A stretch of 64,000 nt of DNA from Watersipora subatra (taxonomy: Eukaryota > Bryozoa > Gymnolaemata > Cheilostomatida > Watersiporidae): the NCBI RefSeq assembly GCF_963576615.1, contig NC_088711.1, forward strand, positions 13,749,869-13,813,868, in the 5' to 3' direction. This document shows, piece after piece, positions 18,002-64,000 of the stretch. Position numbers and translations under genes: made by a program. How positions within the stretch are numbered: position 1 is the first letter of the stretch; each line of letters opens with the position of its first letter. The notes under the pieces are model-generated. The model did no database searches, was not told the DNA's origin, and saw nothing but the letters and a program-made list of their open reading frames with translations.

Positions 18002-18147
18002 TGTTGCATCGTGAAAAACTATTTTGCATAGTCTTAATATAAAACCTGCAAGATGGATAGTTTTGTGGATTTTTTCATTAATGTCACGAAAGAACAACTA
18101 TGAGCATTGCTCAAATTCTATTGTAGATTGTTTTGTTTGCTGCCATT

Positions 18148-19065
18148 ATGCCGAAACGAAGAACACGAGCTTCCGCACGCAAAGAACAGGATGTTCTTAT
18201 AACTGACCAATCGGTTGAACAAGATGTTTCAGCTGCCAAAATCAAATCAGAATCTAGGGAAACCATTGAGACCAAAGACAATTTAGCGGGAGAGAGCGTC
18301 ACTGCTCTGCAGAGAGCTCGCATTGAGAACAACAGATTGAAAGCTTTGCAACTTCGTAAGTCTAGAAAAGAAGAGGAAGAGCAAAAGGCTTTAGCAACAA
18401 AGAGACTAAAACAATCTGTGGCTGTTGAAACGGATACAGGAGCTGGCTTCTTTATAGAAGATAGCACCGATGACTCTCAACGGGACAATTTAGATTTTGC
18501 AGATTTGATATCGAGTGAGCCTTGTATTATTGAAGGTGACGGGAGTGATGTAGAATGTAAAGAATGCTGTCGCCCATTTAGTCTGTCATTTCTCAAGTCA
18601 AAGTTTAACTGCAATATTTGTGATAATTGTCACGACCGCGATAAGCACAAACTCATCACACGTACGACAGCCAAAACTAAATACCTGCTAAAGGATGAAG
18701 ATCTAGATAAGCGGGAACCACTCCTGTTATTCATAACGAAAAAAAATCCTCGAAATAATTACTGGGGTGATATGAAACTCTATCTGGAAGCTCAGTGCTA
18801 TGAAAGAGCCATGGAGATTTGGGGTTCCATGGAAACCATTGAGGAGGAATCAACTAAACGAAAAATTCTAAATGTGAAAGCGAAAGCTAAACGGTATGAT
18901 AAGAAGATGAATGCTCTAAAGAAGGAGGTCCGAAGCAGTCTGTACCAGGTTCAGCTGTCTGGTCACACTCATGAGTGGGGCGTTGAGACTTACAATGAGG
19001 AATCGGATGAGTACACGAAACAATGCACCTCCTGTGGCCATAAAATGACTTATGAAGTTATGTAA
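18148..19065 (+). CDS. XPA: XPA, nucleotide-excision repair damage-verification protein, single exon
   Basis: One uninterrupted frame of 305 aa (human XPA is 273). XPA scaffolds the repair bubble, binding kinked DNA, RPA, ERCC1-XPF and TFIIH in the nucleus. Visible parts: a basic N-terminal tail MPKRRTRASARK, likely nuclear localisation; GAGFFIED (98-105), matching the ERCC1-binding glycine-rich motif; a C4 zinc finger with C137, C140, C158 and C161 (CDNCHDRDKHKLIT); LLKDEDLDKREP and WGDMKLYL of the DNA-binding core; VRSS; and the C-terminal CTSCGHKMTYE, matching the TFIIH-binding end. The reading frame can be extended upstream only without an ATG, so the start is 18148 (GCCATTATG). An ATTAAA lies 48 nt past the stop. 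Vertebrate XPA has several introns; none is visible here, so a functional retrocopy or lineage intron loss is possible. The frame is intact. Confidence 0.95.
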   Translation: MPKRRTRASARKEQDVLITDQSVEQDVSAAKIKSESRETIETKDNLAGESVTALQRARIENNRLKALQLRKSRKEEEEQKALATKRLKQSVAVETDTGAGFFIEDSTDDSQRDNLDFADLISSEPCIIEGDGSDVECKECCRPFSLSFLKSKFNCNICDNCHDRDKHKLITRTTAKTKYLLKDEDLDKREPLLLFITKKNPRNNYWGDMKLYLEAQCYERAMEIWGSMETIEEESTKRKILNVKAKAKRYDKKMNALKKEVRSSLYQVQLSGHTHEWGVETYNEESDEYTKQCTSCGHKMTYEVM

Positions 19066-23638: not shown

Positions 23639-26600
23639 ATGGGCTGCGGTACCAACTGCCTTAAAGGCATACTAGTCACACTCAATATATTGTTCTGGGT
23701 GAGTATTCTTCTAGCTGTCGGGATTTATAAGTTGACAATTGTTCCAATGTTTGCTACTATTTAGCCCTAGTTTATAGCATCTCTACCTGCAGTTAGTGAT
23801 ATGAGTGGCTTTAGTAATATATGTCACAAGTAGAGATTCAAGCGATTTTGCTGTAATTGGCTTCCTTTAGCCTGAGAAAAAGTTTTTAGTTGAAAAAAGT
23901 CTATCATAGTTGCTTTTAGTTGAAGATATTTGTAATGACTCACTTACTTCCATTTAGGTATAAAATGTCTAGGTACACACTTCGCTGTTTGTTCTAGCTT
24001 TGAAATTAAGCATAGCCTTTGATAAAAGGTTGCCATATTAAATTTAGTTTTTGATCATCAGGGATTAAGGTGTGTGATTAAATGTTGTTCAACTTTCTAG
24101 GAGTTTAGCCTAACTGTAATCTGCTTTTGTTTCACGGTTATACCAATTTCTACAAGTTGTATTCGGTTACACGGGCTGTTCAGCCTTCTAAGATGCAGTC
24201 CTAACATGTCTGGCAGCAGTTGCCACCTTCAGTGTCTATAGCCATTGTTTTTTAGTGACAGCGTGAGTATATATCAAGAGACAACGCATCTTGCATTAGA
24301 GCAGCAAATAATCTCAGTAGCGATGAAAGGGCTAGTTTAGAGGCATTCCTCAGCTAATTTGTATCCATACACACACTCAGCGTACACTCTAATAGCATCT
24401 AGTAGCCCTGTGTTCTCACTGCCTGTCTCATACTTCAGGAGCACGCCGACTTTTGCCAGTTTCTTGTAGATATCCTTATATGTTAAAGTGTGTACAAGGG
24501 TCGGCTATATGTAAGCTGTCTGCTGGCACTGTTTGCTATTCCTCTTGATGTGTTTGCATTAGAATGCATCTCTTGTAGTACTTGGCAGTGGGGCCTAGAC
24601 TAGATTCATCTAAAGACATACAATAGCAGTTGGTTACAGTTACTTTTGAAAACTTATATATGTAGTATTATAATGAGGACACGTATCTGTCTGAATTATG
24701 ATGATATAAGATATGTACCCAGGATATGTGCAATGTTGTTCATTTTAATAACAATGGTGTGCTAGCAAACAGTATTTCTATAATAGGTTACATTAAACAT
24801 AGGAGAGGGCGAGAATGGAGGAGTTTAGAAACTTGTATGTATATGTTAGTTTTGATATTCTGTCCTTCTTGTTTACGACTGATGAGTGAAGTTGTAGAGT
24901 TGTTTCTAAGTCGAAGAAGTGGGCTTTTATGCGGGTTACGGCTGAAGACATTTTCAATTCTTAATAACTATTTAGAAAAAACATTAGATATACTATATAT
25001 TAGATATATCTGTGCCATGAATATACACATTAGATGTGTTATATATTAGATATATCTGTGCCATGAATACACACATTAGATATACTATATATTAGATATA
25101 TCTGTGCCATGAATATACACATTAGATGTGTTATATATTAGATATATCTGTGCCATGAATACACACATTAGATATACTATATATTAGATATATCTGTGCC
25201 ATGAATATACACATTAGATGTGTTATATATTAGATATATCTGTGCCATGAATATACAATTAGATGTGTTATATATTAGATGTATCTGTGCCATGAATATA
25301 GCAACAAAAGACTAGCTCTTTGTCACTGCATATGCCAGCGTGTACGAGGGCAGGCATGGTTGAACGTTTTTAAGGAAAAGAATGTTTCCATTTCATGGCA
25401 TCGCCAGAAGCTCAGGGGCCGGTGATTGCTGCTGATCTATTTCTTCTCCACATTTCCAGTAGTGTCAGGGCATGCTGCTTGCTGTTCCGTATAAGGAGTG
25501 TAACAAACATTAAGTTTTTCTATTATGTTGCTATAAGTAAGTAAATAGAACAAGAAGCCAATAATTTACGAATGCTATAAGATAGCATTCGTAAATGCTA
25601 TCTTATAGTAAGAGTGCTGTTGTCAGTACTATAGTAATCCTATGTTATAGGAGTACTATAAGATAGGAGTGTAGGAGTACTATAAGATAGGAGAGTAGGA
25701 GTACTATAAGATAGGAGGGTAGGAGTACTATAAGATAGGAGGGTAGGAGTACTATAAGATAGGAGGGTAGGAGTACTATAAGATAGGAGGGTAGAAGTAC
25801 TATAAGATAGGAGGGTAGGAGTACTATAAGATAGTAGGGTAGGAGTACTATAAAATAGGAGGGTAGGAGTACTATAAGATAGGAGGGTAAGAGTACTATA
25901 AGATAGAGGGTAGGAGTACAATAAGAGTGGAGGGTAGGAATATTATAAGACACTAGGGGATAAGATAAGGAGGGGTCATGATAGAAGCCCAATATTGTTT
26001 GAATATAAGCTGAAGCTATCATCATCATTTCTCTTGTTTTTTTAAACAAACTAAAAATCTTAGACTGAGCTCACACGCCAAGGTTTCCACAACCGACTCA
26101 TCTTTGTTGTTCTCATTTGGTTTAAATTACTCGCAGTTATTTGGACTGGGCCTCCTCGGAGTAGGAATATGGCTTAAAGTAGACCAGAGCATCGCCAACT
26201 TTGGAGAAGCTATTAAAATCGGACTGAATGAGCAGATCATCGACATCGCAGCCTATGCATTCATCGGAGCAGGTCAGAGCTCAACCCAGTTATGCTTCTA
26301 TTGTCTTGACTCGTATTTAGCTAGTCAGTGTTGAAAAGGTGGGTCTCTATTTACATCTTTTTGGAATGTGTCTTCCTAGAGGCTTCAGATTGCTGGTCCT
26401 TGAACGGGTGACTTCTTGCAGCTATTGCGCTTGTCATTCACTTTCATCAGCCGTCAACTTACATGGTTTGTATCACATTCATGAGTAAAATTGTTAGTAA
26501 ACAGTGACTTAGAAGAGTGACCTTGGCATTGCCACTGATGTTTGGCAGATACTGAGAGGCTAGTTTGCTGATATTGGGAGCTATTTGTAAGCGTGTTACG

Positions 26601-39228: not shown

Positions 39229-41877
39229 CTATAAAGCAAAATAATATAGAATGACTAGAAATAAAATAGAAGTTAGAACCATTCCACCAAACAGTATGAT
39301 TCTATCTTGAGAGGATCTTCTCTCAATGAGGCGCATAACAGTGTTGCTAAGTCCGAGGGTGTTCATGAGCTCTAGCACCTTCTTGTGAGCTGATGTCAAT
39401 ACACCTCGCTGCTCCTTTAAATTTTCGAGAATACTTTCCCCTGAACCTATTAACTCATTCATTGCTGCATTGGAATTGTGAAGACTGCTGTGATGTTGCA
39501 AGGCTTGGTCTATCATGATAGATGTATCAGCGCTATTAGGACGAAATGATGTACTCATCAGCTGCTCACGCTGTCGCTCCTCTTGCTCTCTTTCATGCCT
39601 ACCAGAAGCAAACATCCGAGATATGTAAATAAAACGGAATGTAGGGCAAAGATAATGCAATAGCGGACAATGCTTCAGTAAAACGCATTTTGCAAAGATG
39701 GTTATAGTTATTGGCCATCTTTGTCCAACGGTCAATAACTATAATGGTCAATAACTATAATGATCAATAACTATAATGGTCAATAATTATAATGGTCAAT
39801 AACTATAATGATCAATAACTATAATGATCAATAACTATAATGATCAATAATTATAATGATCAATAATTATAATGGTCAATAACTATAATGGTCAATAATT
39901 ATAATGACCAATAATTATAATGGTCAATAACTATAATGACCAATAACTATAATGGTCAATAACTATAATGATCAATAACTATAATGGTCAATAATTATAA
40001 TGATCAATAATTATAATGGTCAATAACTATAATGATCAATAATTATAATGACCAATAACTATAATGGTCAATAACTATAATGACCAATAACTATAATGGT
40101 CAATAACTATTATGATCAATAACTATAATGGTCAATAACTATAATTGGCCAATTAAGTTATTGGTCAATAACTCAATTAGTCAATTAAGTAATCGACCAA
40201 TACTTTTTCAAGCTGTATAATACAGCTTACCAAATTATAATTTCCTTATAGAACAATTTATTACCATATCGGTGCCTGAGCATGAGCAGTACAAAGTCAA
40301 TGAGCAAATAAAAAAAAAATTCAAAGTCTTGTTATTATAGTTGCTTAACCTGTTATCTACTGCTTAACCTGTTATCTACTCTCTAGAATAACTAAATATT
40401 ATCATAGGCAATACATTATTAACTCGGCATTTTCTCTGTCAGAAAACTTTTGAGAACTATAGTTAACATAGCCTAATATTTACCACAAAAAATCCTATGA
40501 CAACAGGACACTTGAGTGCTTTGTTATTGCATCTAACCTTTAATAACGTATCGCTAAGAATGTACATGTAAGTATATTGTAGGTCGCTGTCTATAAACAC
40601 AAGCAATATTATATTAAATCCACAGGTATATCACTATTGCTATGGCTTTAAAGTTAGCAAAGTTTAATAATTGTTCAATATTTTTGTCTTTGTCACTTAT
40701 TTAATAAATTTTATAAAAACTCTGGATAAATATAATTTAGATAAATATGTATATAATAAAAAAATATAAAAAAAACGTGTAAGTCTTTCATTTTTATTAA
40801 AATAGCCAAATGATTGAATTTTTTATTATGTGCACATATACGAAGTATTGAGCAATTGAAATGCATAGTTGTCAGCACTCCGCTCATCACAAAGTCAGAC
40901 AAAGGGAGACAAATCTATAACTGTTCCAGTCAGAAATCTAGGCATAAAGAAGTCTACAGCATAAGCTGTTACAACTCTCATGTCACACAGTCATTAGGCA
41001 AGAAGAGGCTGTAGAATGTATAACTACAAAAATTAACTAGTGGCTGCTAGTTCAGCTACCAGCCCCACCAAACTTTGACAAGCCTCTTTACAAATTTTTT
41101 ATCCTATATATACGAACAACTGTTAGCATGTAATGGATATCTGTGAGTATGTATGTGGGATTGTAGATATCCAAGCCAACTGATGGTAATTGTAGGAGAT
41201 TCTAAATCAGTTTTGATTCAGCAAGCTGAACACCGCAGCATAAATCTTTCAATGAACACATAAATGAATTCAAGTAGCCTAGTTATAACGTTATTATAAC
41301 CATATTTTGCTCGCTCATAGAATTTATGACAGTAAAGCCTAATAATTTTTATCAAATCATTGTATCGAGCTTCTGTGATGATTTATCTGTATACAAAAAC
41401 TTGAATGATTACTCCTCTAACCGTGTAGTATTGTATTAAAGTTCTCCATTGTCTGTCAGAGCCTCTTCAACATCTATGTTCTCTCAAACACCATTATAAT
41501 ACTTACTTGCGTCACTTTGGAACCGTAAGTAAGTTTTGACTACCGCTTCGGTAAACAACAAAATAAATCATAGTTTGAAAATTGATGCAAAGTTGGAATA
41601 CAAACCTTCTGTGTTGAATTGCTTGTAGCGCATTCTGCAGATGCTTGCAATCATATTTCATTTTATCAACATGAAGTTTTGCATCCTCCCTTCGATTTGG
41701 CGGTTCTTTTTTTATCAGATAATCAAGCCGCTCACAATTGTCAAACACGGTAGATATCTGTTTGTTGAGGCTTCGTTCCACAGAACCATACTCCTCCGCG
41801 GTGGCTCTTTCAGCGAATGATAACCCATTAGTTATTTCCTGCAATAAGACTTTGGTTTGCTTTCCAAGAGCATCCAT
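39229..41877 (-). CDS. GOSR2: GOSR2/membrin, Golgi Qb-SNARE, 2 exons
   Basis: Coding exons 41877-41606 and 39598-39229 join in phase 2 to 213 aa, against 212 in human GOSR2. The protein acts in ER-to-Golgi and intra-Golgi fusion as the Qb-SNARE with syntaxin 5, Bet1 and Sec22b (family knowledge). The N-terminal helical part has KKEPPNRREDAKLHVDKMKYD (56-76, close to the human [20 protein letters not shown]); the junction reads QHRR|HEREQEERQRE; the SNARE helix has EQR with Gln154 as the expected zero-layer glutamine; GLSNTVMRLIERR (172-184) is nearly identical to human; a C-terminal membrane anchor spans about 191-213. The single intron carries a 16-bp tandem array and a dispersed-repeat copy close to exon 1. 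The stop is 695 bp from the tetraspanin stop in a tail-to-tail arrangement. Confidence 0.95.
39728..40150. repeat. 16-bp minisatellite in GOSR2 intron, about 26 copies
   Basis: Unit CAATAACTATAATGGT, with GATC/GACC/GGTC variants at the junction and C/T variation (AACTATAA or AATTATAA). It begins about 130 bp past the exon 2 acceptor of GOSR2 on the minus strand. Confidence 0.9.
41283..41580. repeat. Dispersed repeat pair, copy 2 (GOSR2 intron 1)
   Basis: Homologous to 37337-37640. It ends some 25 bp from the exon 1 donor of GOSR2. Confidence 0.7.
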
Positions 41878-43227: not shown

Positions 43228-43613
43228 GTTTAGGATGAATACTATTCATCAAACAAACGTGTCCAACTACAGAAGTAGTTATGAATACATCCTTATCTCA
43301 TGTAATTCTATGGATGTGCATCAAACAAACGTGTCCTACTACAAAATTAGTTATGAATACATCCTTATCTCATGTAATTCTATGGATGTGCATCAAACAA
43401 ACGTGTCCTACTACAAAAGTAGTTATGAATACATCCTTATCTCATGTAATTCTATGGATGTTCATCAAACAAACGTGTCCAACTACAAAAGTAGTTATGA
43501 ATACATCCTTATCTCATGTAATTCTATGGATGTGCATCAAACAAACGTGTCCAACTACAAAAGTAGTTATGAATACATCCTTATCTCATGTAATTCTATG
43601 GATGTGCATCGCT
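43228..43613. repeat. 72-bp minisatellite, about 5.3 copies
   Basis: Unit of exactly 72 bp containing CATCAAACAAACGTGTCC and GTAGTTATGAATACATCC. Two plus-strand frames stay open across it because the period is a multiple of 3; the peptides are pure repeats with no upstream gene structure, so no gene is called. An inverted piece (ATACATCCATAGAATTAGGA) follows at 43614. Confidence 0.9.
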
Positions 43614-47995: not shown

Positions 47996-48133
47996 ATGTC
48001 AACAAACGATTTATGTTTTCCACGGGGAGGCACCGAAAAGGCAGCAAAGCATATTTCTACTGACGATTGTGAAGTCCAAATTCTTGCACAACCGAAGCTT
48101 TCAAAATCGTTAAAAAAGCCTGCTCACAAAAAG
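47996..48133 (+). CDS. PDCD11: Probable first coding exon of PDCD11/RRP5 (partial)
   Basis: An ATG opens 46 codons that end exactly at AAAAAG|GTATTA, a plausible donor in phase 0. The peptide begins MSTNDLCFPRGGTEK and ends in the lysine-rich KSLKKPAHKK. Human PDCD11/RRP5, the S1-repeat pre-rRNA processing factor of the nucleolus, starts with MANLEESFPRGGTRK, so the shared FPRGGT-K block near the N-terminus plus a basic tail supports homology. No S1-domain exon was found between here and 64000 on +, so the next exon would be beyond the window or missed; the first intron would then contain the 48-51.6 kb satellite. Evidence is one short motif, so it could be another gene or a chance frame. Confidence 0.5.
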
Positions 48134-48225
48134 GTATTAACCAGTTTGGTTGTTATGAATATTCGTTTCCAATCGTTTCATACGGTCGATAACAGTATTT
48201 TCAATTATTTAACGCGATTAAAGTA

Positions 48226-48300
48226 ATGGTGTGTACTACGGTCATAAGAATGGTGTTTGTTACGGTCATAAAAATGGTGTTTATTACGCTCATAAATTAG
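48226..48300. repeat. Short tandem repeat, about 24-26 bp, 3 copies
   Basis: AATGGTGTTTGTTACGGTCA-type unit between the probable PDCD11 exon and the (TA)n tract. Confidence 0.8.
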
Positions 48301-48323
48301 CCATCTTTAGTCTTAGTTGATGG

Positions 48324-48327
<4 letters not shown>

Positions 48328-48402
<75 letters not shown>
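48328..48402. repeat. (TA)n microsatellite
   Basis: About 37 uninterrupted TA dinucleotides, immediately before the satellite array. Confidence 0.98.
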
Positions 48403-48404
<2 letters not shown>

Positions 48405-51400
48405 CATATTTCAGAGTTAGGAGTTGAATAAATATATACCAGTTAGGAGGTTTCGGAATATAAGGGATTAGGAGTTAACGCAAATATATATGGGTAAGCC
48501 TCCTATATGGTCTAATTTATCTACATTGTAGATATATATATATATTTATTCACCTCCTAATTATTATATATTTTTATGGAAATTTCAGGAGAATATGGTA
48601 TCATACAATATATATTCATCGCCTTATCATACTTTGTATATATGCATTCTAGAAAAACTGTCAAAACTGGGAGAATGTCTAGATGGTTGTTGTAAATTAC
48701 ATATCAATTTGAAGGTAAAATAATTCATATCTCAATGAGTAAGCAAAAATAATGATTACCAGTTAGCAGATTGCTACAACTTACACATAAATTAGAATGT
48801 TACCATTGTAACTTATGTAATAGTCACAATGGAAACATTACATAGCATGGCACAGCTTACCTACCCTTTAGTAAGATGCCGTAATCTATATCATTTAGGA
48901 GTTTGCTATAACTTGTTTGTTTGAGAGGCTGCTCTGATTTACATATAATAAAGTATGTTGCTATAACTTATAGATCACTTGAGATAATGCTATAATTTGA
49001 ATTTCACATAGTTGGTAGCAATTATCTATATATCAGTGAGAAGGCTGCTATAAGTTATATATTATTTAGGAGGCTGCTGCTATTTATAAATTGTTTTGGA
49101 GGTTGCTATAACTTACATATCATTGCAGAGGCTGCTATAAGTTACATATAGTTTAGGATGTTGCTATCACTTATAGATCACCTAAGACCTTGCTATAATT
49201 TGAATTTTCCATAGTTGATAGCTATTATTTATATATCAGTTAGGAGGCTGCTATCGATTATATATTAATTAGGAGGCTGCTGATATTTATATATCATTTA
49301 GGAGGTTGCTATAACTTACATATCACTGCAGAGGCGGCTATGAGTTACATATAATTTAGGATGTTGCTATCACTTATAGATCACGTACGACCTTGCTATA
49401 ATTTGAATTTTCCATAGTTGATAGCTATTATTTATATATCAGTTAGGAGGCTGCTATGGATTATATATTAATTAGGAGGCTGCTGATATTTATATATCAT
49501 TTAGGAGGTTGCTATAACTTACATATCATTGCAGAGGCTGCTATGAGTTAGATATAATTTAGGATGATGCTGTCACTCATAGATCACCTAAGACCTTGCT
49601 ATAATTTGAATTTTCCATAGTGCATAGCTATTATTTATATATCAGTTAGGAGGCTGCTATGGATTATATATTAATTAGGAGGCTGCTGATATTTATATAT
49701 CATTTAGGAGGTTGCTATAACTTACATATCATTGCAGAGGCTGCTATGAGCTACATATAATTTAGGATATTGCTATGACTTATAGATCACATAAGAGTTT
49801 ACTATAATTTGAATTTCATATAGTTGGTTGCTACTATTTATATATCAGTTAGGAGGCTGCAATGAATTATATATTACTTAGAAAGCTGGTGCTATTTATA
49901 TATCATTTAAGAGGTTGCTATAACTCACATATCATTGCAGAGGTGCCATGTGTTACACATAATTTGGGATGTTGCTATCACTTATAGATCAACTAAGAGT
50001 CTGCTATAATTTGAATTTCATATATTTGGTAGCTACAGTACTATTTATATATCAGTTAGGAGGCTGCTATGAATTATATATTAATTAGGAGGCTGCTGCT
50101 ATTCATATATCAATTAGGAGGTTGCTATAACTTACATATCTTTGCAGAGGCTGCTATGAGTTACATATAATTTAGGATGTTGCAATCACTTATAGATCAC
50201 CTAAGACCTTGCTATAATTTGAATTTTCCATAGTTGATAGCTATTATCTATATATCAGTTAGAAGGCTGCTATGAATTATATATTAATTAACAGGCTGCT
50301 GATATTTATATATCATTTAGGAGGTTGCTATAACTTACATATCATTGCAGAGGCTGCTATAAGTTACATATAATTTAGGATGTTGCTATCACTTATAGAT
50401 CACCTAAGACCTTGCTATAATTTGATTTTCCCATAGTTGATAGCTAGTATTTATATATCATTTAGTAGGCTGCAATGAATTATATATAAATTAGGAGGCT
50501 GCTGCTATTTTTAAATCATTTAGGAGGTTGCTATAACTTACATATCATTGCAGAGGTTGCTATTAGTTACATAGAATTTAGGATGCTGCTATGACTTATA
50601 GATCACATAATAGTTTACTATAATTTGAATTTCATATAGTTGGTAGCTACTATTTATATATCAGTTAGGAGGCTGCAATGAATTATATATTAATTAGGAG
50701 GCTGCTGCTATTTATATATCATTTAAGAGGTTTCTATAACTTACATATCATTGCAGAGGCTGTTATGGGTTACATATAATTTAGGATGTTGCTATCACTT
50801 ATAGATCACCTAAGACCTTGCTATAATTTGTATTTCCCATAGTTGATAGCTAATATTTATATATCATTTAGTAGGCTGCAATGAATTATATATAAATTAG
50901 GAGGCTGCTGCTATTTTTACATCATTTAGGAGGTTGCTATAACTTACATATCATTGCAGAGGTTGCTATCAGTTACATAGAATTAAGGATGCTGCTATGA
51001 CTTATAGATCACATTAGAGTTTACTATAATTTGAATTTCATATAGTTGGTAGCTACTATTTACATATCAGTTAGGAGGCTGCAATGAATTATATATTAAT
51101 TAGGAGGCTGCTGCTATTTATATATCATTTAAGAGGTTTCTATAACTTACATATCATTGCAGAGGCTGCTATGGGTTACATATAATTTAGGATGTTGCTA
51201 TCACTTATAGATCACCTAAGACCTTGCTATAATTTGTATTTCCCATAGTTGATAGCTAGTATTTATATATCATTTAGTAGGCTGCAATGAATTATATATA
51301 AATTAGGAGGCTGCTGCTATTTTTACATCATTTAGGAGGTTGCTATAACTTACATATCATTGCAGAGGTTGCTATGAGTTACATAGAATTTAGGATGCTG

Positions 51401-51563
51401 CTATGACTTATAGATCACGTAAGATTTTACTGTAATTTGAATTTCATATAGTTGGTAGCTACTATTTATATATCAGTTAGGAGGCTGCAATGAATTATAT
51501 ATTAATTAGGAGGCTGCTGCTATTTATATATCATTTAAGAGGTTTCTATAACTTACATATCAT
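48403..51563. repeat. Satellite of 29-bp monomers in 203-bp higher-order units
   Basis: The phrase TTGCAG (with CTGCAG once) recurs at about 49123, 49326, 49529, 49732, 49935, 50140, 50345, 50548, 50751, 50954, 51157 and 51360: spacing is 203, twice 205. Each 203-bp unit splits into seven 29-bp monomers of the type TATATATCATTTAGGAGGTT + GCTATAACT; one monomer (with CCATAGTTGATAGC) is most divergent. From about 50345 on, units alternate between a CCATAGTTGATAGC/ACCTAAGACC form and a CATATAGTTGGTAGC/ACATAAGAGT form, giving a 406-bp second-level repeat. The first 600 bp are poorly ordered single monomers. If the PDCD11 exon is real, this lies in its first intron. Confidence 0.95.
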
Positions 51564-54018
51564 TGCTAACTTTCTGCTCACTAAAATAAACGAATAATGT
51601 AACTCAATATTTATAAATATGTTCTATGTTATAGTTTCTTATTCAGTCACATATCGCTGCTGCACTGCATACAAAAACTTAAAAAAATTAGTTGGTAACA
51701 ATGCATGGACGCAACTCAGTTACTGTGATTGCTAAAATGAAACACACACATCTTTGCTTGCTGTGCATATTATCTACAGTAATAATATGAATTACTTGCA
51801 CAACATACTTAGTTACTCAATCTAACATACAATAACAGCAATGTCTTTCTATTCATCTTAAGCCACTCTTAGAACGTTAAGTAAAAACATTTTCCCACTT
51901 GGGAATGGAGTGTCAGGTTGCAAAACCTGTGCAATACCACAGCACCATAAATTGGGTAGATTCCAAACAAGCCCATTGTGCCTATGTAGAACCCAGAGAA
52001 AAACTTAATGTCACATAGAGAGCCAATAAAAATACAATAACATTCTATCTTGAGGGCATTTTCGCTTTTCAAAACTTCTTTCTTACTGCAATTTATTGTT
52101 AGCAATGATCAGTCGGGCTGGACCCAGCACAGTACCAAATTTTTTCTAACTTTAGATCTCTTGACTTTGGGTGGTTTTATTGATCAATAGTAATACTGAG
52201 TTCTATTATTCACATTTTACCAGTAATAATAATGCCCTGAACTGTCAAGCAATTGATAGAACATTCTACTCAGACACATTCACTTAAATTTGGAAAATGA
52301 CCCAAAAAGATATATTTCTCATTGTGTAGTGAATTTCTGATTGTTTTTAGTCAAGCACAGCGTTCTAAGTAATTTTTTGGGCTTGTCGGTTTGACAGTAA
52401 GTTGTCAGTAGACTGGCTGCTGCGGCATATTTTCTTATATTTGGTTTTTCTTTAAAATAATTATTATAATTTATCTTAGAGCTTGTTGCTTGAATAATAC
52501 ATCATAGTGTACAGTGCAGTACAACAGATAATATCTATTGTCGGTATTGTATTATCTATCATAGTCATTGTTTTATGCACATTTTCTGTACATAAAATAA
52601 TAGCTAAGACTGCTTGATACAAAATAACTATTCAAGTGCATTACTGCGGAGTTGGTCTCTTTTAGTCTTCAAAAAGAGCACATTTATTGACAAATACAAC
52701 GCAATGATAATAAGAAGGTTCAACAACATAAAAAATTCAGCTGGCATTTTTTCTCGCAGCCTTCTTTAGTAAGTTGTTGGCTCGAGCCCGAATCACTATA
52801 ACACTTCTGTTAGGCAGCTTTGAGTGTATAGCATCCAACACTGATCTTGTTGGCAGTTTCCCTGATTTTTCAGTCCAGTGCCTATCATATTCTGCTATTT
52901 CCTCTGCACTTTACCGTTTTCTGCTGACTGAAATAGTAAATAATGTGGATTATCATTTATAAAAATCTGATAAGCTATGGCTTTGATGAATCACATATCA
53001 TTGCTCAGCTCCATTCAAAAGTTAAATAAGCTGGTTTATGTGCGGCAAGTCAAAACAGAATTGACAGTTTCTCAGATACAAGTGAACAATAAGGACATTA
53101 ATGCTCGTTAGTGTCATTTCTCATTTAGTAATATAATACTTAACCAATGTATTGTTATTCAAAACACACATATACTGTAGAAGGTACTTTGATGACCACT
53201 TCTATATACTATTTTAGTAGCTAATTATGAAACTAAATGGTGTGCCACTTGTGTGCATGCGATAGAGCTGTTTGGATTTCTATTTGCTTCAAACTATTAG
53301 AGAAATGATCAGGATTAACATTCATTGAGCAGTCTCAATGGCCAGTGTTCAGAACGATTGCTGCTAAGCTTAGTGTGACCTGACTGGGTAGCTATTTATT
53401 GAGTCATTAATTAGGCTAATACTTGACCTATGGGGTCAACCACTGTGGTTAAACACGCATTGTTCAGGTCTTCCTTGAAACAACTAATGCCTAGATTGCT
53501 TTAGATACCTAAATGCCTCTGACTAGGAGAGCTATGTTTTGTAACCTGACAGCAGCAGAACACAAAGACTAGTGTCAGCATTTATGTAGGCAACGAATTT
53601 GACTGAAATACTTGAAAAGTTAGACACCTTTATTTTTTCTACTGCATTTGAGCTACAGCAAAATAATCACGCTTGTTTCCCTAGTACATTGTGTTAGTTT
53701 AAAGCCACTTATCATAGCATCACCCACATTTAATCTGATGTCTGAAAATCACTCTTCGGTGTTGATAATCCATGTATGTCACTCTGCACTTATTTAAAAT
53801 CAATGCATTTTTGATTAGATGCTACTGCACAAAGAGAAATATACCCTTGGGTTCTTTTTTTAAATTCATGCATTAGTGATTTGCAAATATATGAAAGCAG
53901 AGCCTTATTTAAAACTAAAATCTTTTTGCGTCGATATTTGCAAAGTTATGCTTGCTATTTTAACCTTGACCCAAAACTCCAATATTATAACATTCTGAAA
54001 TACAGCTAAATTGACATA
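51564..54018. other. Non-coding, nothing firm
   Basis: 53520-53640 weakly matches 58150-58310 (TATGTAGGCAACGAATT / TATGCAGGCAATGAATT; GTTAGACACCTTT / GCTAGACACCTTT), an old dispersed-repeat pair. The minus-strand frame at 51869-52105 is unassigned. Confidence 0.4.
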
Positions 54019-55421
54019 AGGTAGAATCTTAATTTGAAGGCCATGGTCATTTGAGTGCTACTCTAGAAGTGTTGAAAACTAGAGTGTCACCCTTTAATTG
54101 ACAACCACTTCCAGCTGACTGCGACTTCAACATTCTTTGATCTTTGGATCCAATTTTGGACAGGATGGATAGAAAAATGTTGACAAATTTTTACTAACAA
54201 TGACTCAGTTACAACAATAGCAATTAATACTTTTGTCAATGCATATTGAAGCGAGTTTTCTAACTTCTAAGCTTTACAGTGTTTTCGTTAAAGCTTTGAA
54301 AGCAGCACCGTGGAAATAATTAATAACTCTATCAGGCTGATAATAATTTTATTGTTTAAGCGGCTTGATAGTTCGGCATATATGAAAAAACGGTTTAGCA
54401 AATATGATGAAATCTGTACTACTATTTGAGGCTAAAATTTCTTGCACATGCTAAAGCATTAGAATAAGCAGTTAACAATGGCATATTGCAAGCTCAACGC
54501 CCAGTGTATATGTTAACACTGGATCACAGCTTAGTTTGTGTGTTATATAATTTTTATGTGTTTTTTTCAATAGAAGTAACGTTCACTTGAACGGTGGCGT
54601 TCTATCTTTAACCGTCATCTATTATAGTACAGGTCTAGTAGAGGGGCGTTTAAATGAATGGGGATTCAATTAGAGATTACATAATATTTTATTAACCCTT
54701 TCACCGCTGCATGCACATTTAGGCGAAATCAATGGACGACCGGCATATGTGCATGTTGCGAATTTCCTGGCAATTGCGTAGTAACTTAATTTTATTATTC
54801 GTTGACAACATAACTAACAGTCTTTAAGACTTTTTATGGTATTGACAGTGTTGTTCAAAAGTTTCCCTGTAAAATTACCCTAAACTCACGAAGCAATTTT
54901 AAATTTTTGTTTAGGACTTTTCAACATAAAAAGAAACATTTGTTCTTTCTGATTTTCGAAATATTTAGTGCTATTATAGCTTTCGCAAGTACATCCAGAA
55001 TTGAAAACAGATAATTACTTATGTTGATAACATTATTGATGATTGTTGATGACTGACGGATTAAGATTTTAGTGATTACACATATAATTAAAGTAGCAGC
55101 TCCAATAGTGACTCCAATGGTGGTCAAAGTAATAGTTTCGTAAGAGTAAGGAACATGGTAGAGCATTGTTTTTCGAGATTCGAAGGGATCGTAGCTTCAC
55201 ATAGCATTAGCAATGCACGAAGTAGGAATGCATTAAGTTTTTTGAATAGTACTATTTTTTAACGTGTTGGAAAAATAAAATCTATAACAAAAAGGTTTTA
55301 GATAGAGTTGAAGCTAATAAAAATTGAACATATATTATGAAGCACAATCGACAATTTTTGCCACTATAATTGGAAGGGTTAAAAAATGCAGTGCCATGGC
55401 ATTCAAACATAGATTTTATAG
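54019..55421. mobile_element. 1.4-kb TIR element, copy 2, diverged
   Basis: The left end (AATCTTAATTTGAAGGCCATGG) and the inverted right end (CTATAAAATCTATGTTTGAA) are degraded forms of the copy-1 terminus with TA flanks. Internal blocks match copy 1: TTTGATCTTT, AAGCTTT..TTCGTTAAA.CTTTGAAA and GAAATAATTAATAACT (54270-54330 against 9222-9282). Another terminus-like stretch at about 54650-54690 (ATTCAATTAGAGATTACAT) suggests a composite or nested structure. A minus-strand 81-codon frame at 54921-55166 with two hydrophobic stretches is unassigned. Confidence 0.6.
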
Positions 55422-55924
55422 TAATATTATTTCTTATAAATTTTTTGAAATAAAACTTTTATTAATGTGGCACGCTCTTGTGGAAATTAACCGTTAATCA
55501 GCAACATACCCCCTTCAAGAAAGCGTCCAGCTGTGCTTCGTACCATTTTCCATCTGGTGGATATAGTGCTTGGATGCGGTGACCAGGTTTCTACCAAAAT
55601 AAGCAAAACAATTTTAATAGCCCAAACAGATGTTATGCAGATTAAAAATTGATGCAAAAGATGCCTGATGTTTTTAGGTTTTTCAGCAAATCCGTGTCCC
55701 TACCTCCCATTACTAAAATTCTATGAAGCAGTAATATTTTATCTCTTGCGATATTCTTCTACAAAATTGAAACATAGATTTTAAAGCTTCAGCAATTTAA
55801 AGGATTTCATTTACTCCAGTCACTTACTTATGACTCAGCCTCTAGTTTAAATCCGTATCAAATTACGACTAAAATGCATCAACTTGTTAATTACAATGAA
55901 AATAATACATTATCATAACTTTAT

Positions 55925-57090
55925 ACTGCCCTAAGCAAGCAAAACGCCTGACAAAATCTGACAAGTTTTTCAAAATTCACTTTTTTGTGCTTATATGTAA
56001 TTTAGGTTGAGATCTAACATGTCTCAAAATTTCATATATCTGAGACCACCAGAAATAGCACTTTTCACAATGTGCAAAATGCCCTATCCACATTTACCAC
56101 ACATAAAGTGGCAATCAAAGCTCTCTATCTGCAGATACAGCGTTTTGATTGGCCTGAACATACACAAAGTTGGACATTATGAGCAGCATTATGTAATCAA
56201 AGAGTATATAAACAAAGGGAAGCGAAACTGAAGCATATATATTTGGTTGTTTTAAGGCAGCTCATACAAGCTAGTGCACTTCTAAGTGCTCATCTTATTG
56301 CTATATTTTTTATCATAATATATTTATTATGACAGGACGATATCTAAGTGACAAAAGTCTCGATTTAAAGATCCGACTCAGAGATTTGATGAAAAATTTG
56401 TTTTAATTACATGTCCATTGGAAGGTTTTGCTTTTTTAAAATACTGACATTATTGCACTCAGCTGTTTGCTCTAAATTATTTTCAATAAAAGCTTTTGAT
56501 CTTTTTTAAACTACTATTTTACTTACTCCTTTCATTTCATGACATCTGGTTTGAAGGATACCTAGATATTTGATCATCTCTTAACTTTTGAGCTAAATAT
56601 GGCTATTACAGGGCTTTAATCCATGTGTTGACTGGATGAGTAATAGGAATTGCAACATATATCATTTTGTTGACTAATTGCGGGTTAATATCAGAATTTA
56701 AACTTGTAATCCTTTGATAATCCAGTCATGGCAAATGGTCTTGTGGCAAACTAATGAAACTAATAAACTACAATGAGAAACCAGTCCAATTATGCAATCA
56801 AAAGGCCCTATCTGCAGTGATAGGGCGTTTTGATTGCCTAGTGCCAGCTTAGTAAATTGTCAATTTAAGCAAACAAAATGCCCTAAGTGAAATAACTCCT
56901 TTGATTTTAAAGTTTCACGAAAAAAAAATTCGGTAAAGATTGTTGGATATCTCACCATAATAAATAAAAAACAACTAAAATACTGCTAATACTGATGCCA
57001 GGCTCAACCAAAACGCGTTTGTGCTTGTGCTGAACAATTTACAAATATCAAGATACAGCGTTTTGCTTGCTCAGGGCAGTAAAGTATAGG
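55925..57090. mobile_element. TIR element with nested hairpin, 1.15 kb
   Basis: The left end ACTGCCCTAAGCAAGCAAAACGC (55926-) is repeated inverted at the right end (GCGTTTTGCTTGCTCAGGGCAGT, about 57058-57080). Inside, GCGTTTTGATTGGCCT (56141) and a 43-bp hairpin (56794-56836) carry variants of the same core. No clear target duplication was found. No coding frame is convincing. Confidence 0.55.
56794..56836. repeat. Near-perfect hairpin, 19-bp arms
   Basis: GCAATCAAAAGGCCCTATC and its complement differ at one base around a six-base loop TGCAGT. It carries the GCGTTTTG-ATTGC core seen at the ends of the surrounding element. Confidence 0.85.
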
Positions 57091-60000
57091 CTACTAATAA
57101 TTCTGCCTGTTTGGTGCTATCAATCAGCTAACACTACTAATCAGAATAAAAAGCATCCATAATTATTTTAATGCTTTTTAAAAAGTTACAAAAGTTAGGA
57201 GCTTCGACAGAGTCACAGATATTCATCAATTGCTGGCTACTGTGCTTTATGTTACCATAACTATTTTAATGTGTGTCGGTTAATCTCACAAAGCTACCCT
57301 CATGTATAATTACAAAGTTATCATTTTATGAAAATTAGTAATAATTTCATTCTTTTAGCATTATAAAGTTGGGGTTTCTTGACCTTTTTAACTTGACAAT
57401 ATTACGATCTTGCAATTAAGGCAGTAAAATCCAAATCCAAATTAGCTGCGAAAACCTATGCATTGTTGTTTGCCGTCGCAATTTGATGACACGAGTAAGT
57501 TGCTTTGATATAGTATTTAAAGTGGCTCGCCCTACAGGTCAAAAATGGCCACTACCAATCTAACCTTTTGCATTGGTATTGAGGCGAAGTAAAATACTTT
57601 TTCATGATGCCTTTTTACCATAATATGGTACAATTAATTCAATGACAAAATTGGCAAAAGTAATATAAAACAATTGTGACAAACAAATATACCAATTGTG
57701 ACATGATTAGTCTGTTCTTCTGCTGCTGCAAAACCCTAAATGGCTAGACGCGTGAAAAAAGCAAAATGTTTAGCGGCTACAATCTCGCTAGAAGGTTGAA
57801 CTTATGTGATAAGTCTTTAGGTTGTGTAGGAGTGAGAGGTTGGCTTGTTTCTTACAATCTATTTAATCAATTGACTAGCATGCAAGAAGATAGCAAGCCA
57901 TGCCACATTAGGAGAATGAGTCACTTTAAGCACAAACCACAATAGCATAAGTACATAGGTCATTTCTGCTAGTGAGACGACCTTGGAGAATAAGACCACA
58001 TTATGCAATTCTGTGAAGATTTTATTACTGCAGTTATACTTGTGCTGCAATACTTCTAATAGAGTGAAAAGCAAATGAGCTGCCCAACCACAACCTCCTT
58101 CATTATAAAGTTACAAAGAATAGGAATAACAACAATAGCTTTCATTCGGAGGCTGAGGCTATTGAGAAGTAGAAAGTGAATTAGCTAAGCAGAAAATAGT
58201 AGAACACACATAATAAGAGCATAGGCATCATGATTGACGTGTATGCAGGCAATGAATTTATGTACAATTTCACTACCAAATTTTTTAGTAAAGCTAGACA
58301 CCTTTGGCTAAAGAGTGCTAGCTATAGGTCAAAACAAGCCAGTGACAAATCTCATGTTATGCATCCTTGCTTGGACACTTTATTTCTAAAGTGTTTAATG
58401 CATTGGAAGTTTAACATAAAAGTGTGCCAAGAATGCACAAAGAACATTGACAGCAATAACTGCATAGTACTGACAGCAATAACTGAATAGAACATGATGT
58501 TTAATTAAAATGTAACATAAAAATAAACGTTTTATTTTGTTTTGGTAAGCTTGCAGCAAAAATGTTTGCTGTGCACATAAAATATTGTTTTACTCCAAAT
58601 ACTTTACAAACAAGTAATAATAACTTTATTGATGCAAATTGTACTGAAATTATATTTGCTACGAGCACCAATGGAAGTCAAAATAAGTAATACAATTCTT
58701 CCAGACCTTTTAAAAACAATGGCCTTTGCTGCTACAGAAAAGTTAGTAGACCCATAGGAAGAGAAGTATATGTTCTTATACTGCTAAAAATACCTTTGGT
58801 TCAGAAATCAGATTTGAAAAGAGCAATGAATTATTATAAGCATTGGAAAAATGTTTGGGATGGATAGGAAACAAAGCTGGGTATTGCACATGCTGGTAAT
58901 TTAGCTAATGTAAATAGATTTCCTACACTACCTAATTGAAAGCATCAATGCAAAATCTAAATACATGTAAATACTTACTAGCCATAGTACAGAGTGACCG
59001 TTTAATGTTTGTCAACATAACATCCGTACCGCTTTGAGCATCTTGAAATTATATTAAAGTTGCTTTCATTATGAGCTCCCTTTGACATTTTAAAGTATTA
59101 AAATGGGCAAATACAAGTTGCATTTTCAGAGAACTTTTAAATTCAAGTCAGATGCCACAAAAAGTTCCTCTGAGTTGTTTGTAGTATATTCTAAAAGTGC
59201 TAACACTACATTTGTTTTCAATTTTAAAGTTGACACAAATAATTGAGCAAATTATGTAGCTTATTAGTAAAACTTTTGTTAACATCAGCAAACAAACTGC
59301 ATACATGCTGCCCGATACCGAAGGCCAAAAATAATAATATATATTGCTATTTATATTTTAACCAATAGTTTTGCAGTTTTGTTATTGTAGGATATAGCAA
59401 TTTGTATAAAACCTACTGTATTTCAGGTTTGAGTAACTATGAGTTTTAGTAGTGTTCTGGCCCTTCCTATCGCGTGTTTTCAACATTTTGAGGTAATAAT
59501 TAAAAGCCATGAGTTGAATTGCGCAACTTCAGCAGCATCTTATACATATATATCATTTGCCAAACTCATTGTCTTGAATCATCAAAGTTCACTAAATCAT
59601 TCAAAAGGAAATACATACACTTGTATCTCTAATTCTGTTATAGCTTTACCCTTTTACTGCCACCCATGTACAAACTAAGCTACCGGCCTACCGCCAGCCA
59701 TTTCACCAAAAATTGCCAATTTAGCTTCATGATATGTACATGAAGCATGTATACAATTTTGTTTCAACTTCAAAGTTTATCTAGAAACCTTTTGTAATAT
59801 ATTTTATTTTGCTAAAATGTTAACATATAGTGCTATGCAAAAATCAATGTACCTTCACTTTGTGCATTGCTAAAGCTATGTGAAGCTACAATCGCTACGA
59901 AGCTAAAACGATGCTCTACAATGTCCCTTACACTTAAAAAACTATTATTTTCACTATCATCAGAGTCACTGTTGCTAATTTAATTATCTGTGTAATCACA

Positions 60001-60397
60001 AAAATCTGAATTTGAATTGACTATAGTGTCATCAACATACATGTAAGTAATTATATGTTTTCTGACTTGCGCAATACTTAACAAAACTTACACAAAAATG
60101 TCCATTTTTATTTTGGAAACTCTCAATAAAAAATTTGAAACTGCTTGGTTATCTTAGACTAATCTATTAGAGAAATATTCGAACCACACTGACAATACCA
60201 TCAAAGTTTTAAAATCATCCGTTATGTTTTTAACGAATAATAAAATTAGGTGACCACGCAATTGTTGGAAAATTCGCAAAAATGTGCATACGGCAGTTGC
60301 TGATAGATTTAGCATAAATTCGCATACGGTAGGGTAAGAGTAAAAACCAACAAAATATTTGTCAATCTCCTGCCTCTAAACATGATATCTCAAATCT
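57091..60397. other. Non-coding, nothing firm
   Basis: Apart from the repeat partner at about 58150-58310, I recognise no exon, RNA gene or element end. Confidence 0.4.
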
Positions 60398-61230
60398 GAT
60401 AATTACTCTCAGTGTTGACTGAGTAACTAAAAGTGGTAATGAGTAACCATGGAAAACTATTCATTTTATATAATTATGCAAGTGCTCAGCAATTGCAACC
60501 ATGACTCATAAAAACTAAGAAGAGCAATACTAAATCTCTTTGCTATGCTACATTCCTTTGATTGGTTTGCGCTATTTATATTATGTAATCTGCCAATAAT
60601 AGATGAATAGAACACAAAAGTGGCATAATGGTTTATGTAAGCGTTTGAAATAATACAATGCCTGTAAAAATTGACAACTTTTCTTACTGAAGCTATGGCT
60701 ATATCAAATTATCACACTAATTTTTGGCTCGCATGTATAATGTGCTAGTTGACAGCAACTTATTGCAATATCGCATACCTTTAATTTTATGTCTGCAAAT
60801 CAGTCTTTGGTGTGGGCCATCAATGCTTCTCATCCAGCAATTATCTATAACTAATTGATTAATTTGATTATGAAGCGTCATTGATTATTTGCAACTATAC
60901 AAAGAAAAACTAATTTTGGGCATGCTGTTACATTCTTACGTCAGGTATACATTTGCTAGTTACAGTAAAACTTTGTACAGTATATTTTGTGTTGGTGAAT
61001 TTAAAGTTTTGCTTATCATAGTAACTTTGCCAAAACGTCAAACATTACTACATTTCAAAATACAACCTTACTGATATAATGTTTTATAGTTTGTAATCTA
61101 TACTTATGTACATGTTAAAAAATATTATTAAATTTGGTAGATGAAACCTTGATTATTTTGACATATTTTTTTGACATATGGTTACTCATTACCACTTTTA
61201 GTTACTCAGTCAACACTGAGAGTAATTATC
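60398..61230. repeat. Perfect 53-bp inverted repeat enclosing about 730 bp
   Basis: 60398-60450 is the exact reverse complement of 61178-61230 over 53 bases; the flanks do not match. Each arm also contains a small internal hairpin (ACTCTCAGT / ACTGAGT). The interior has no recognisable gene. Confidence 0.8.
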
Positions 61231-62399
61231 AGTAATATTCTAACAACAGTTTTGACTGTTGGTAGAACCACATTAATAACTTTACTTATCATTATAAAAA
61301 ACATCAAAAATTATTATATTAATAACTGAAAATAGATTAATGTTAGAGAATTAACTGATTCACTAAAATAACTATTAATTGTCAGCTGGCGTGTCTGTGT
61401 TGATGTTACAAAACCAAACATTCGTGTAACAATAATAAAGTCCAAAATTAGGATTTTACAAAAAGTTTTGATATTCTCCTTTATAGTATTATAATGCTGA
61501 ACTTTCTTGACTTTTCTATGCAGAACAATATCAGCAGTTGGATGAGATAAACAGGTGTAAAAAAATATATATCAAACGTGTTCTATGCTACATTCCTTAA
61601 AAATTATAATAATTGAAACATACTTTTTTCACGCTAGTCCTATTTCTTTATTAAATAAAATTTATACTGCTTTTCTACAACTGTATGTTTCAAGTAAATA
61701 AACTGTAAATTGACTAAAATAACATGAACAACTTACCAAATGTGACGTGCCCCCTTACATGTAGTTATTCCGCTGCTACCAAGCTCTAGTAGACTACATG
61801 GGTGAAGAACTAATAGTCCTAACAGCCACAGCAACATTATAACAGCCACATCTCGCTAGCTGTTATATACTATGGTTATACTTTTGCCACTTTATTTCAA
61901 TAAATTTAAAAAATCAATTATTCGACTAAAAACCATCTCTCAGGTATTGCATTCGGATGAAAAGTTTCAAAAAAAGATTTATTTTGTGGCTGGATGCAAC
62001 GGCAGCAAAAATATGAATTGTACTGATTATAGACTTATTTAAACTTTTACTACAGCCATGCTTAAACATCAGTGGAAACCATAATGTGCAATTATTGTGA
62101 ATTTTCACAAAAAAGAGCAGATCAATGAGAAACCGTGCAAAAAAAGGGAGTGCTTAAATGGCAGTCTTGAAAACCATAAAGAGGGTCAGCAAATAAATTG
62201 TAATGTATTGTAGTTTGTTAATATACAACTTTATTTCCCAAATCTAATAAAGCTATCATGGATATTAGCAAAACTGACTGTATCCGACATAGCTGCTAAT
62301 TCCTTGTATTGGCTGATGATTAGTCATAAGCTTATTGCAATATGTTTTTAAATAGATTGTGCTATTAACTGAAACGATACCAAAACACCTAAAAGTAAG
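61231..62399. other. Non-coding, nothing recognised
   Basis: AT-rich, no exon or repeat ends seen. Confidence 0.4.
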
Positions 62400-62691
62400 A
62401 ATATTTTAAAATTGATATATGCCTCCTAGTTCCATATATAAGAGCCTCCTAGAGTTTGTAATTTATTGATAGAAAATTACACATTTTTGTTGGAGTTGTC
62501 TCCTCTTTTCCATATATATGAATATAGATATATAAGGCAATTATGGGAATCATGTTTAAAATACTTCTATAGGGTTGTTAAGCACTATAAACACTGCTAG
62601 AATTAGGAGGCTCCCTGGACGCCTCCTAATTTTTCAGAGCCTCCTAACATGGATTATATATTGATAGAAGCCTCCTAGTTGGGAAATATAG

Positions 62692-62695
<4 letters not shown>
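62400..62695. repeat. Inverted, sparse relative of the 48-kb satellite
   Basis: Repeated GCCTCCTA motifs (about 62421, 62447, 62620, 62640, 62669) with TATATA spacers are the reverse complement of the TAGGAGGC core of the 48-51 kb array. It is followed by a (TA)n run. Confidence 0.7.

Positions 62696-62748
<53 letters not shown>
62695..62748. repeat. (TA)n microsatellite
   Basis: About 26 TA dinucleotides, adjoining the inverted GCCTCCTA repeats; the mirror image of the order at 48.3 kb. Confidence 0.97.
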
Positions 62749-62749
<1 letters not shown>

Positions 62750-64000
62750 AAATGTCAGCCAGGAAATTGTAATCGTTCTATAAAACTTTGAAAGATATAG
62801 AATTATTGCTTTTGTCTGTATGATTATGGTAAATTTATTGTTACTGCAATGAAAGTTTGATTTGCAGAGCTGAATTGTTATACTGTGATTAACATTAATA
62901 AATAGAATGTTTCTTTTCTCTCATTAAGTAGGTAGTTGACTTTGTTCTGAACTTTACATGATTTTTGATTAATGTTGGGCAATGCTGGTCTGAAACTGCG
63001 TATGCCGCATTTACTATTTTTGGTGTGTCACAATGGACCACAAACTTCAAGAAAAGTCTGCCTATGTAAACTGTTGCTGCTGCGGAGTGTAGGAAGTAGG
63101 AGAATGAGTTATTTATGATACTAACACATTTGGCTTTGATATCTTGCCAGTTGTTTAGATATCTACTAAGTGTTATTTTTCTGTAAGCATTTGTGATGAG
63201 ATAACTGTAAGAGAGCTCACGTTCGGAGCCCAAAACATTTGTTGTACTATTGTGTTCTCTATAACAGCAATTTGTTTGTGATGGAGAATACTGTTCAAAT
63301 GAAGTAATACTTATGTTTACAACTAAGCACATCTAGGTGTTAGATATTTTTCAGTACAATATTTTCATCACATCTGCGCCTGTCTCTTCTTTGTAGGTCC
63401 TCCATCCTCATTAATGTTCTGCATTTGGGTGCCCTTTCATTATTTTATTCAATTTATTGTATATTTATATTTACAATTCTGGCTCGCTCTCTTTGTAATA
63501 GCCTCTCGTATTTTATGAAAAGTACTTTTTAAAGTATTACAGGTTAATTAACGCGTAGTAATCATAGTCATTTGCATTATGAATAGCAGTCAATTGAAAT
63601 ATATGGGCTAGTATGTAATAAAATATTGCATCGGGCTACAATCACCATACTGATCATGCTACAATGCCTTCTAGCATGCCCAATACATAAACCACTTGAT
63701 CTTCTAAAATTTTACAATAAATCTTGTTTCATATTTTAAATAACCCTGTGAATTTGACATGCCTTGTTCACACTAGCCAGACCTTCAAGAGATTCTACAG
63801 AGCCAGTATAAATTATATCCCCTTTTTTGACAACACCATCACAACTGATCCGCCATTCAAGATATATGAAGGGTCATTAGGAATTTCTATTAGGCCTGGT
63901 ACCACTGCAATACTTTTTCTGTAGTTTCTATACACATTTTAGATTAAATTGGTAAAACATCTTTTATTCAAGTAACTAAAAGATATTTTGAAACGTTATT
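62749..64000. other. Mostly unassigned end of window
   Basis: Contains the unassigned frame at 62895-63332; otherwise nothing recognised. No PDCD11 S1 exon seen. Confidence 0.4.
62895..63332 (-). other. Unassigned 145-codon open frame
   Basis: A long frame for this AT-rich DNA, with mixed residues and no repeat structure (segments NNWQDIKAKCVSII and SFSYFLHSAAATVYIGR). I recognise no family and saw no splice or promoter context, so it may be chance or a decayed element. Confidence 0.2.

Follow-up and report, generated by a model that had tools for sequence, protein, structure and literature searches.

A three-level array of 29-bp monomers with a hairpin-forming proximal cap in the bryozoan Watersipora subatra

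Genes and repeats of the window

The DNA analysed here, referred to as the window, is a stretch of 64,000 nucleotides from contig NC_088711.1 of Watersipora subatra (assembly GCF_963576615.1, positions 13,749,869 to 13,813,868 of the forward strand), and all coordinates below are positions within it. A layered tandem array lies at 48901-51566, and gene exons are found elsewhere in the window. XPA is present as a single uninterrupted open frame of 312 codons at 18127-19062 with a Pfam XPA_C match (E 6.4e-22); among solved structures the best match is named as the DNA repair protein complementing XP-A cells (E 2.1e-57), and yeast-type RAD14 chains match far less well. Further Pfam matches are protein-kinase exons (6.0-8.1 kb), a V-SNARE exon (39.2-39.7 kb) and a fragment of a reverse transcriptase (34.9-35.2 kb). 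The window yielded no RNA gene at Rfam gathering thresholds and no tRNA with ARAGORN.

Upstream of the array, a candidate first exon at 47996-48133 comprises 46 codons, with FPRGGT near its start and GT after its end, and ends about 270 bp before the hairpin described below. We take it to resemble the N terminus of RRP5/PDCD11. With part of the human RRP5/PDCD11 sequence, tblastn reached this exon at E 4.2 and gave no convincing S1 match; Pfam had no match for the exon, and a PDB search returned only a designed protein (E 0.0013), no stretch of which passed alone. Downstream, Pfam found nothing at E ≤1 in 55 of the 66 stop-free plus-strand fragments of at least 36 codons in 51560-64000. The array may lie in an intron, as a preliminary description of this DNA had tentatively suggested: the candidate first exon lies upstream, but the fragments scanned supplied no downstream exon.

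Tandem repeats are common in the window, for which Tandem Repeats Finder reports 26 rows. Among the other repeats, a 55-bp stretch occurs twice in inverted orientation at 100% identity (60396-60450 and 61178-61232, about 0.7 kb apart), and three older dispersed pairs are 70-77% identical, two of the three being inverted (54711-55360/59707-60325, 37342-37631/41280-41572 and 29559-29898/45565-45905).

Three nested periods

Periods of 29 and 203 bp were called independently by Tandem Repeats Finder, at 48887-51564 and 48887-51566. When 48887-51566 was compared with itself, taking for each multiple of 29 the best lag at most two bases away, identity was 0.63 at a lag of 29, 0.81 at 203 and 0.78 at 406, and 0.57-0.62 at the remaining multiples of 29 below 406. 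Across 48403-51700 the top two lags were again 203 and 406, against a mean of 0.29 over lags 5-1299. Wrap-around alignment resolved the layered array, about 2.7 kb long, into a worn unit u0, twelve 203-bp units (u1-u12, 49101-51540) and a stub. The unit u0 (48901-49100, plus strand) is 200 bp long, 84.5% identical to the consensus and already in seven-mer register, and the 26-bp stub of a further unit (51541-51566, plus strand) ends the array within a monomer. This distal end is abrupt: just to the right of 51566 there is no monomer match, 51567-51650 and 51640-51720 scoring no better than shuffles.

The 29-bp monomer, 203-bp seven-mer and 406-bp dimer of the preliminary description are thus borne out by the called periods, the lag identities and the unit alignment. 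Its count of about 12 units stands, and its almost invariant spacing holds in eleven of them, which are exactly 203 bp; u5, at 207 bp, breaks it. Its interval, 48403-51563, needs revision, as 48403-48900 falls outside the layered array.

Each of the 84 monomers of u1-u12 has its nearest neighbour at the same position of the seven-mer, as the preliminary description had predicted, with mean differences of 2.7 of 29 bases within a position and 10.4 of 29 between positions. The clustering covered u1-u12, with u0 and the stub left out, and u5 entered it after removal of five inserted bases and addition of one gap. The array therefore behaves as a higher-order repeat, in which monomers group by position and not by neighbourhood (84/84 in u1-u12) and the larger units are much more alike than the monomers (0.81 at lag 203 against 0.63 at lag 29). 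In its sequence features it is also a minisatellite, a kilobase-scale array of head-to-tail units of about 10-100 bp, here 29 bp over 2.7 kb. Centromeric alpha-type satellites form very long arrays; this one spans 2.7 kb in a window that contains gene exons.

Types among the 203-bp units run from u1 to u12 in the order A0 A0 A0 B B' A0 A1 B A1 B A1 B. The first three units (49101-49709, plus strand) are of type A0, with pairwise identities of 0.951-0.966. The next three (49710-50322, plus strand) are a mosaic u4, mostly B, a mosaic u5, which carries the insertion that makes it 207 bp, and an A0 unit, u6. Of 17 diagnostic A0/B sites, u4 has the A-like state at the first three and the B-like state from there on; u5 alternates between the two states, and the A1 type is A-like in its left part and partly B-like in its right. 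Because the A0 consensus includes u6 and the B consensus includes u4, the mosaic reading of these two units is partly circular. The mosaic units suggest exchange or conversion between units.

The distal six units (u7-u12, 50323-51540, plus strand) form three A1-B dimers of 406 bp that are 0.968-0.978 identical to one another. Mean identity is 0.973 between units two apart and 0.884 between units one apart, in agreement with the two alternating types reported initially, but 24 of the 720 possible arrangements of u7-u12 score at least as well. Over all 12 units, 893 of 20,000 shuffled orders reached the observed lag statistic. The third level is therefore clear in identity and modest as a pattern.

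A coding repeat is ruled out: 203 is not a multiple of 3, open frames on either strand of 48901-51566 reach at most 51 codons, and each frame contains 66-101 stops. The sole unit folded, u10, is ordinary on both strands (z -0.31 on the plus strand, 0.95 on the minus strand). Searches of the array against plasmids by blastn gave no match, and a 37-base array pattern had no exact match in viral contigs or prokaryote genome contigs, which is in keeping with an animal source.

The proximal flank

At its proximal edge the locus begins with an (AT)39 microsatellite of 79 bp (48324-48402; Tandem Repeats Finder), followed at 48404-48575 by a hairpin-forming cap that bears monomer-like sequence in both orientations. 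TTAGGAG occurs there directly at 48417, 48443 and 48468, and in inverted form as GCCTCCTA at 48498 and CCTCCTAA at 48553. The hairpin arms are 33 nt long and 85% complementary, and the DNA fold of 48404-48575 has a z of -5.62, equalled by none of 200 shuffles. Matches to the array unit run directly through 48404-48480 and inverted through 48490-48600, in each case with none of 200 shuffles as good.

Between this cap and the layered array, 48600-48680 gives no match to the monomer, its score being equalled by 73 of 200 shuffles, and 48660-48900 (plus strand) holds worn single monomers that keep the 29-bp phase without the seven-mer register, their best end phases, at about 28 modulo 29, tying or nearly tying among several seven-mer positions. 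Against the array unit, 48680-48760 and 48760-48820 each beat all 200 shuffles, and 48820-48900 beat all but 2. The lack of register in this worn flank is as would be expected of an older phase. On the other side of the AT run, monomer-like sequence in 48224-48324 is no better than in shuffles. Three copies of a 24-bp repeat (48225-48296) lie directly upstream of the run, so that three kinds of tandem repeat adjoin here.

In a control for these matches, 102 pieces taken from other parts of the window were each set against 60 shuffles, and 2 of them outscored every one; single matches at that level are accordingly weak, and the flanks were ranked against real tiles of the window as well, as given below. 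The earlier reading had overlooked the hairpin, the worn monomeric flank and the probable relative at 62 kb.

A probable relative at 62 kb

A shrunken probable relative lies on the minus strand at 62421-62694, where TAGGAGGC motifs, together with a palindrome that has an inverted copy, adjoin a (TA)26 microsatellite (62695-62747; Tandem Repeats Finder). Outside 48403-51566, TAGGAGGC has six sites in the rest of the window, where 0.59 are expected, and all of them fall within 62421-62677. The motif TTAGGAGGC has 22 sites in the window (0.26 expected), of which 19 belong to the array and the other 3 lie at 62.6 kb. Going outward from the AT run, each of the two loci presents three direct motifs and then an inverted one, the 48-kb locus carrying one additional inverted motif.

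Aligned with the array unit on the minus strand, 62380-62694 scores 25 against a maximum of 23 among 200 shuffles. The signal is concentrated in 62590-62694 (24 against a maximum of 17, with 0 of 300 shuffles equal), 62380-62470 and 62470-62590 being unremarkable (22-272 of 300 shuffles as good). Against 48403-48480 the 62-kb stretch scores 24, above a shuffle maximum of 20 (0 of 300 equal), and against the longer 48403-48600 its score was reached by 3 of 300 shuffles. The hairpin at this relative has a z of -2.58, with 5 of 200 shuffles folding as well. A high-scoring BLAST match between the two loci (108 nt, 86%) is mostly AT run, and the probable link between them rests on short matches outside it. 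With moderate confidence, we suggest that the 29-bp monomer derives from a dispersed repeat.

Flanks of the longer arrays in the window

The flanks of all six Tandem Repeats Finder arrays of at least 300 bp were compared with their own monomers, two flanks of at most 200 bp in two orientations giving 24 comparisons, and each flank was ranked against real 200-bp tiles of the window. For the layered array the left flank was set at 48400-48599, that is, at the hairpin, because worn monomers intervene. Its inverted match was equalled by none of 558 tiles; the same was true of the left flank of the array at 25648-25950, and for the array at 39730-40173 the inverted left-flank match was equalled by 5 of 556 tiles. 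Direct left-flank matches also rank high for 25648-25950 and the layered array (0 of 558 tiles each). The other three arrays were unremarkable, their best result being an inverted match to the right of 43247-43610 (24 of 558 tiles), and the 200 bp to the right of the layered array contain no monomer-like sequence in either orientation.

Immediately left of the 24-bp array at 25.6 kb, 25560-25647 forms a hairpin with a z of -7.78 and perfect 15-nt arms, which hold the CTATAAGATAG motif of that array in both orientations (25560-25950). A 16-bp array likewise has an inverted monomer copy (39702-39718), which lies within a small hairpin directly adjoining it on the left (39693-40173). A relationship of the 24-bp array to the 29-bp monomer was considered and is not claimed (score 12 against a shuffle mean of 8.6, with 11 of 300 shuffles as good). 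In a further array, with a 46-bp period (24981-25300), identity is 0.82 at a lag of 92 and 0.79 at a lag of 46, a hint of a dimer.

An inverted monomer thus stands on the left of three of the six arrays of at least 300 bp (at 48.9, 25.6 and 39.7 kb), a small sample from one window. We raise the speculative idea, which we think rather unlikely, that minisatellites in this genome are born on one side of small hairpins and that the inverted copy is left behind as a fossil cap. A foldback repeat would stall copying or make it switch strand, and the monomer of one arm would then duplicate outward in a single direction. If that were true, the cap would give the origin of an array and its direction of growth, and the layering would record its bursts; were such caps to mark origins genome-wide, foldback repeats would be linked to both the birth of minisatellites and the direction in which they grow.

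Divergence steps and simulated growth

Divergence within the layered array is stepwise: about 36% between seven-mer positions, 10-13% between distal A1 and B units (8-10% between the A1 and B consensuses) and 1-4% within the distal types. Neutral growth was simulated with similarity-dependent exchange and rare illegitimate duplication under parameters of our own choosing. From identical monomers, higher-order structure arose in 2 of 51 large arrays (at least 40 monomers; 320 runs). Later simulations started from 12 already diverged monomers, chosen to fit the observed divergence. In the first such set, 349 of 360 runs reached full size (92 monomers), and steady growth gave two-level order in 228 of these 349 arrays and a doubled period in 3. 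The second set, in which 468 of 480 runs reached full size, used a somewhat different order test; three-level arrays numbered 2 of 156 under steady growth, 12 of 155 with a pause that allowed 3% divergence and 42 of 157 with one that allowed 6%. What these models indicate is that selection is not needed and that pauses in growth help, and we draw nothing beyond that from them.

The successive rounds of amplification proposed in the preliminary description find support both in the three divergence steps and in the rise of three-level arrays from 2/156 to 42/157 when growth pauses. Its placing of the youngest round at the distal end is weakly supported: it fits the nesting, but the proximal units u1-u3, at 95-97%, are nearly as uniform as distal units of the same type, at 96-99%. 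To call such layering unusual was an overstatement, given the dimeric higher-order repeats reported in a study of Tribolium (PMC10218199) and the frequency of two-level order in the simulations (228/349 from a diverged start, set beside 2/51 from an identical one).

Origin of the array

In our judgement the locus is probably a non-coding minisatellite that started from an AT-linked foldback repeat and grew by local amplification in separate rounds, with no evident product. The seed would have been a dispersed repeat that combined an AT microsatellite with a few TAGGAGG-type monomers and a hairpin-forming inverted copy. From it, to judge by the divergence, 29-bp monomers would have increased in number to one side of the hairpin and later have diverged to a difference of about 36%, at which pairing in the 29-bp register would be poor. 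The block of seven monomers, which is plain in the array, would next have been duplicated and become the unit on which unequal exchange or replication slippage acted, so that about 13 units of 203 bp arose. A and B units, which differ by about 10%, would have diverged before a 406-bp A-B pair was copied as a whole to give the last three dimers. So understood, the array appears to be a substrate of tandem duplication, and we see nothing to suggest that it codes for a product or serves the cell in any way.

Several other explanations were weighed against this one. A transposon of foldback, MITE-like or Helitron-like type could have arrived with its tandem monomers already in place, the block being one of its arms or its internal tandem region, a reading that we find doubtful. 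The one-end hairpin with monomers in both orientations and the probable (AT)n-linked relative at 62 kb would suit it, and a study of Drosophila virilis describes how the roughly 220-bp internal tandem repeats of Tetris inverted repeats seeded satellite arrays (PMC4079207). Of the long inverted repeats with tandem subrepeats and the dispersed copies that mark foldback transposons, the window shows a short two-orientation hairpin on the left only and one probable dispersed relative. Against the reading, the 200 bp right of the array lack monomer-like sequence in either orientation, a search with the right flank (51561-52600) detected no convincing further copy in the window (best E 0.016), and Pfam found no transposase among the 10 frames and 55 fragments scanned. 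An artefact of assembly, by expansion or collapse of the array, is very unlikely: the distal dimers are 97-98% identical, a range in which assemblers can miscount, yet scattered substitutions and type-specific sites distinguish the units, and one of them is 207 bp long, where artefactual copies should be near identical.

Two functional readings were weighed as well. In layered repeats flanked by older monomeric sequence, the locus resembles alpha satellite, and 203 bp is close to nucleosome spacing; a satellite with a centromere- or heterochromatin-related function is nevertheless extremely improbable in an array of merely 2.7 kb that shares its window with the exons of XPA (18.1-19.1 kb), a V-SNARE (39 kb) and a kinase (6-8 kb) and with no second 203-bp array called by Tandem Repeats Finder. 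Very unlikely, too, is a selected non-coding element, such as an intronic regulator or a nucleosome-phasing array of an RRP5/PDCD11-like gene. Its appeal lies in the candidate first exon (47996-48133) some 270 bp upstream of the hairpin; that exon lacks a Pfam match, no downstream exon emerged from Pfam (55 of the 66 plus-strand fragments of 51560-64000) or tblastn, and u10, the single unit folded, has no structural signal.

If a locally amplified minisatellite is the right account, this short, fully readable array seemingly keeps its seed, its first phase in worn form and the traces of two rounds of amplification that followed.

Comparison with known systems

The layered array belongs to a known kind of DNA, the layered satellites or minisatellites. 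The FB foldback elements of Drosophila melanogaster have arms of 31-bp repeats grouped into larger units; unlike them, the layered array has no second long arm. In D. virilis, the foldback transposon Tetris is an inverted-repeat element that, according to PMC4079207, supplied repeats later expanded into TIR-220 arrays. The hairpin here is smaller, at about 170 bp, the monomer is 29 bp and the window holds one shrunken probable relative. Transposons as sources of minisatellites are covered in two reviews (PMC6947457, PMC9659126).

The human minisatellites MS32, MS205, MS31A and D1S80 are, like the array, tandem repeats of minisatellite size with variant units, whereas the variants in the array are ordered into seven-mers and dimers of seven-mers. 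Repeat gains at MS32, MS205 and MS31A are strongly biased to one end, as cited in PMC3356730, and the same paper found no such bias at D1S80. Alpha satellite and the higher-order repeats of beetles share with the array the clustering of monomers by position and the amplification of blocks of diverged monomers; that such blocks become the unit of amplification in layered satellites is set out in a review (PMC5615363). The Tribolium study describes dimeric higher-order repeats with A and B subunits in the low-copy satellite TCsat38, and low-copy satellites that are mainly euchromatic (PMC10218199). The array differs from these systems in its 29-bp monomer, its single 2.7-kb extent, its three levels and the gene exons in its window, and it offers a compact test case for the formation of higher-order repeats, which are much harder to read in long centromeric arrays.
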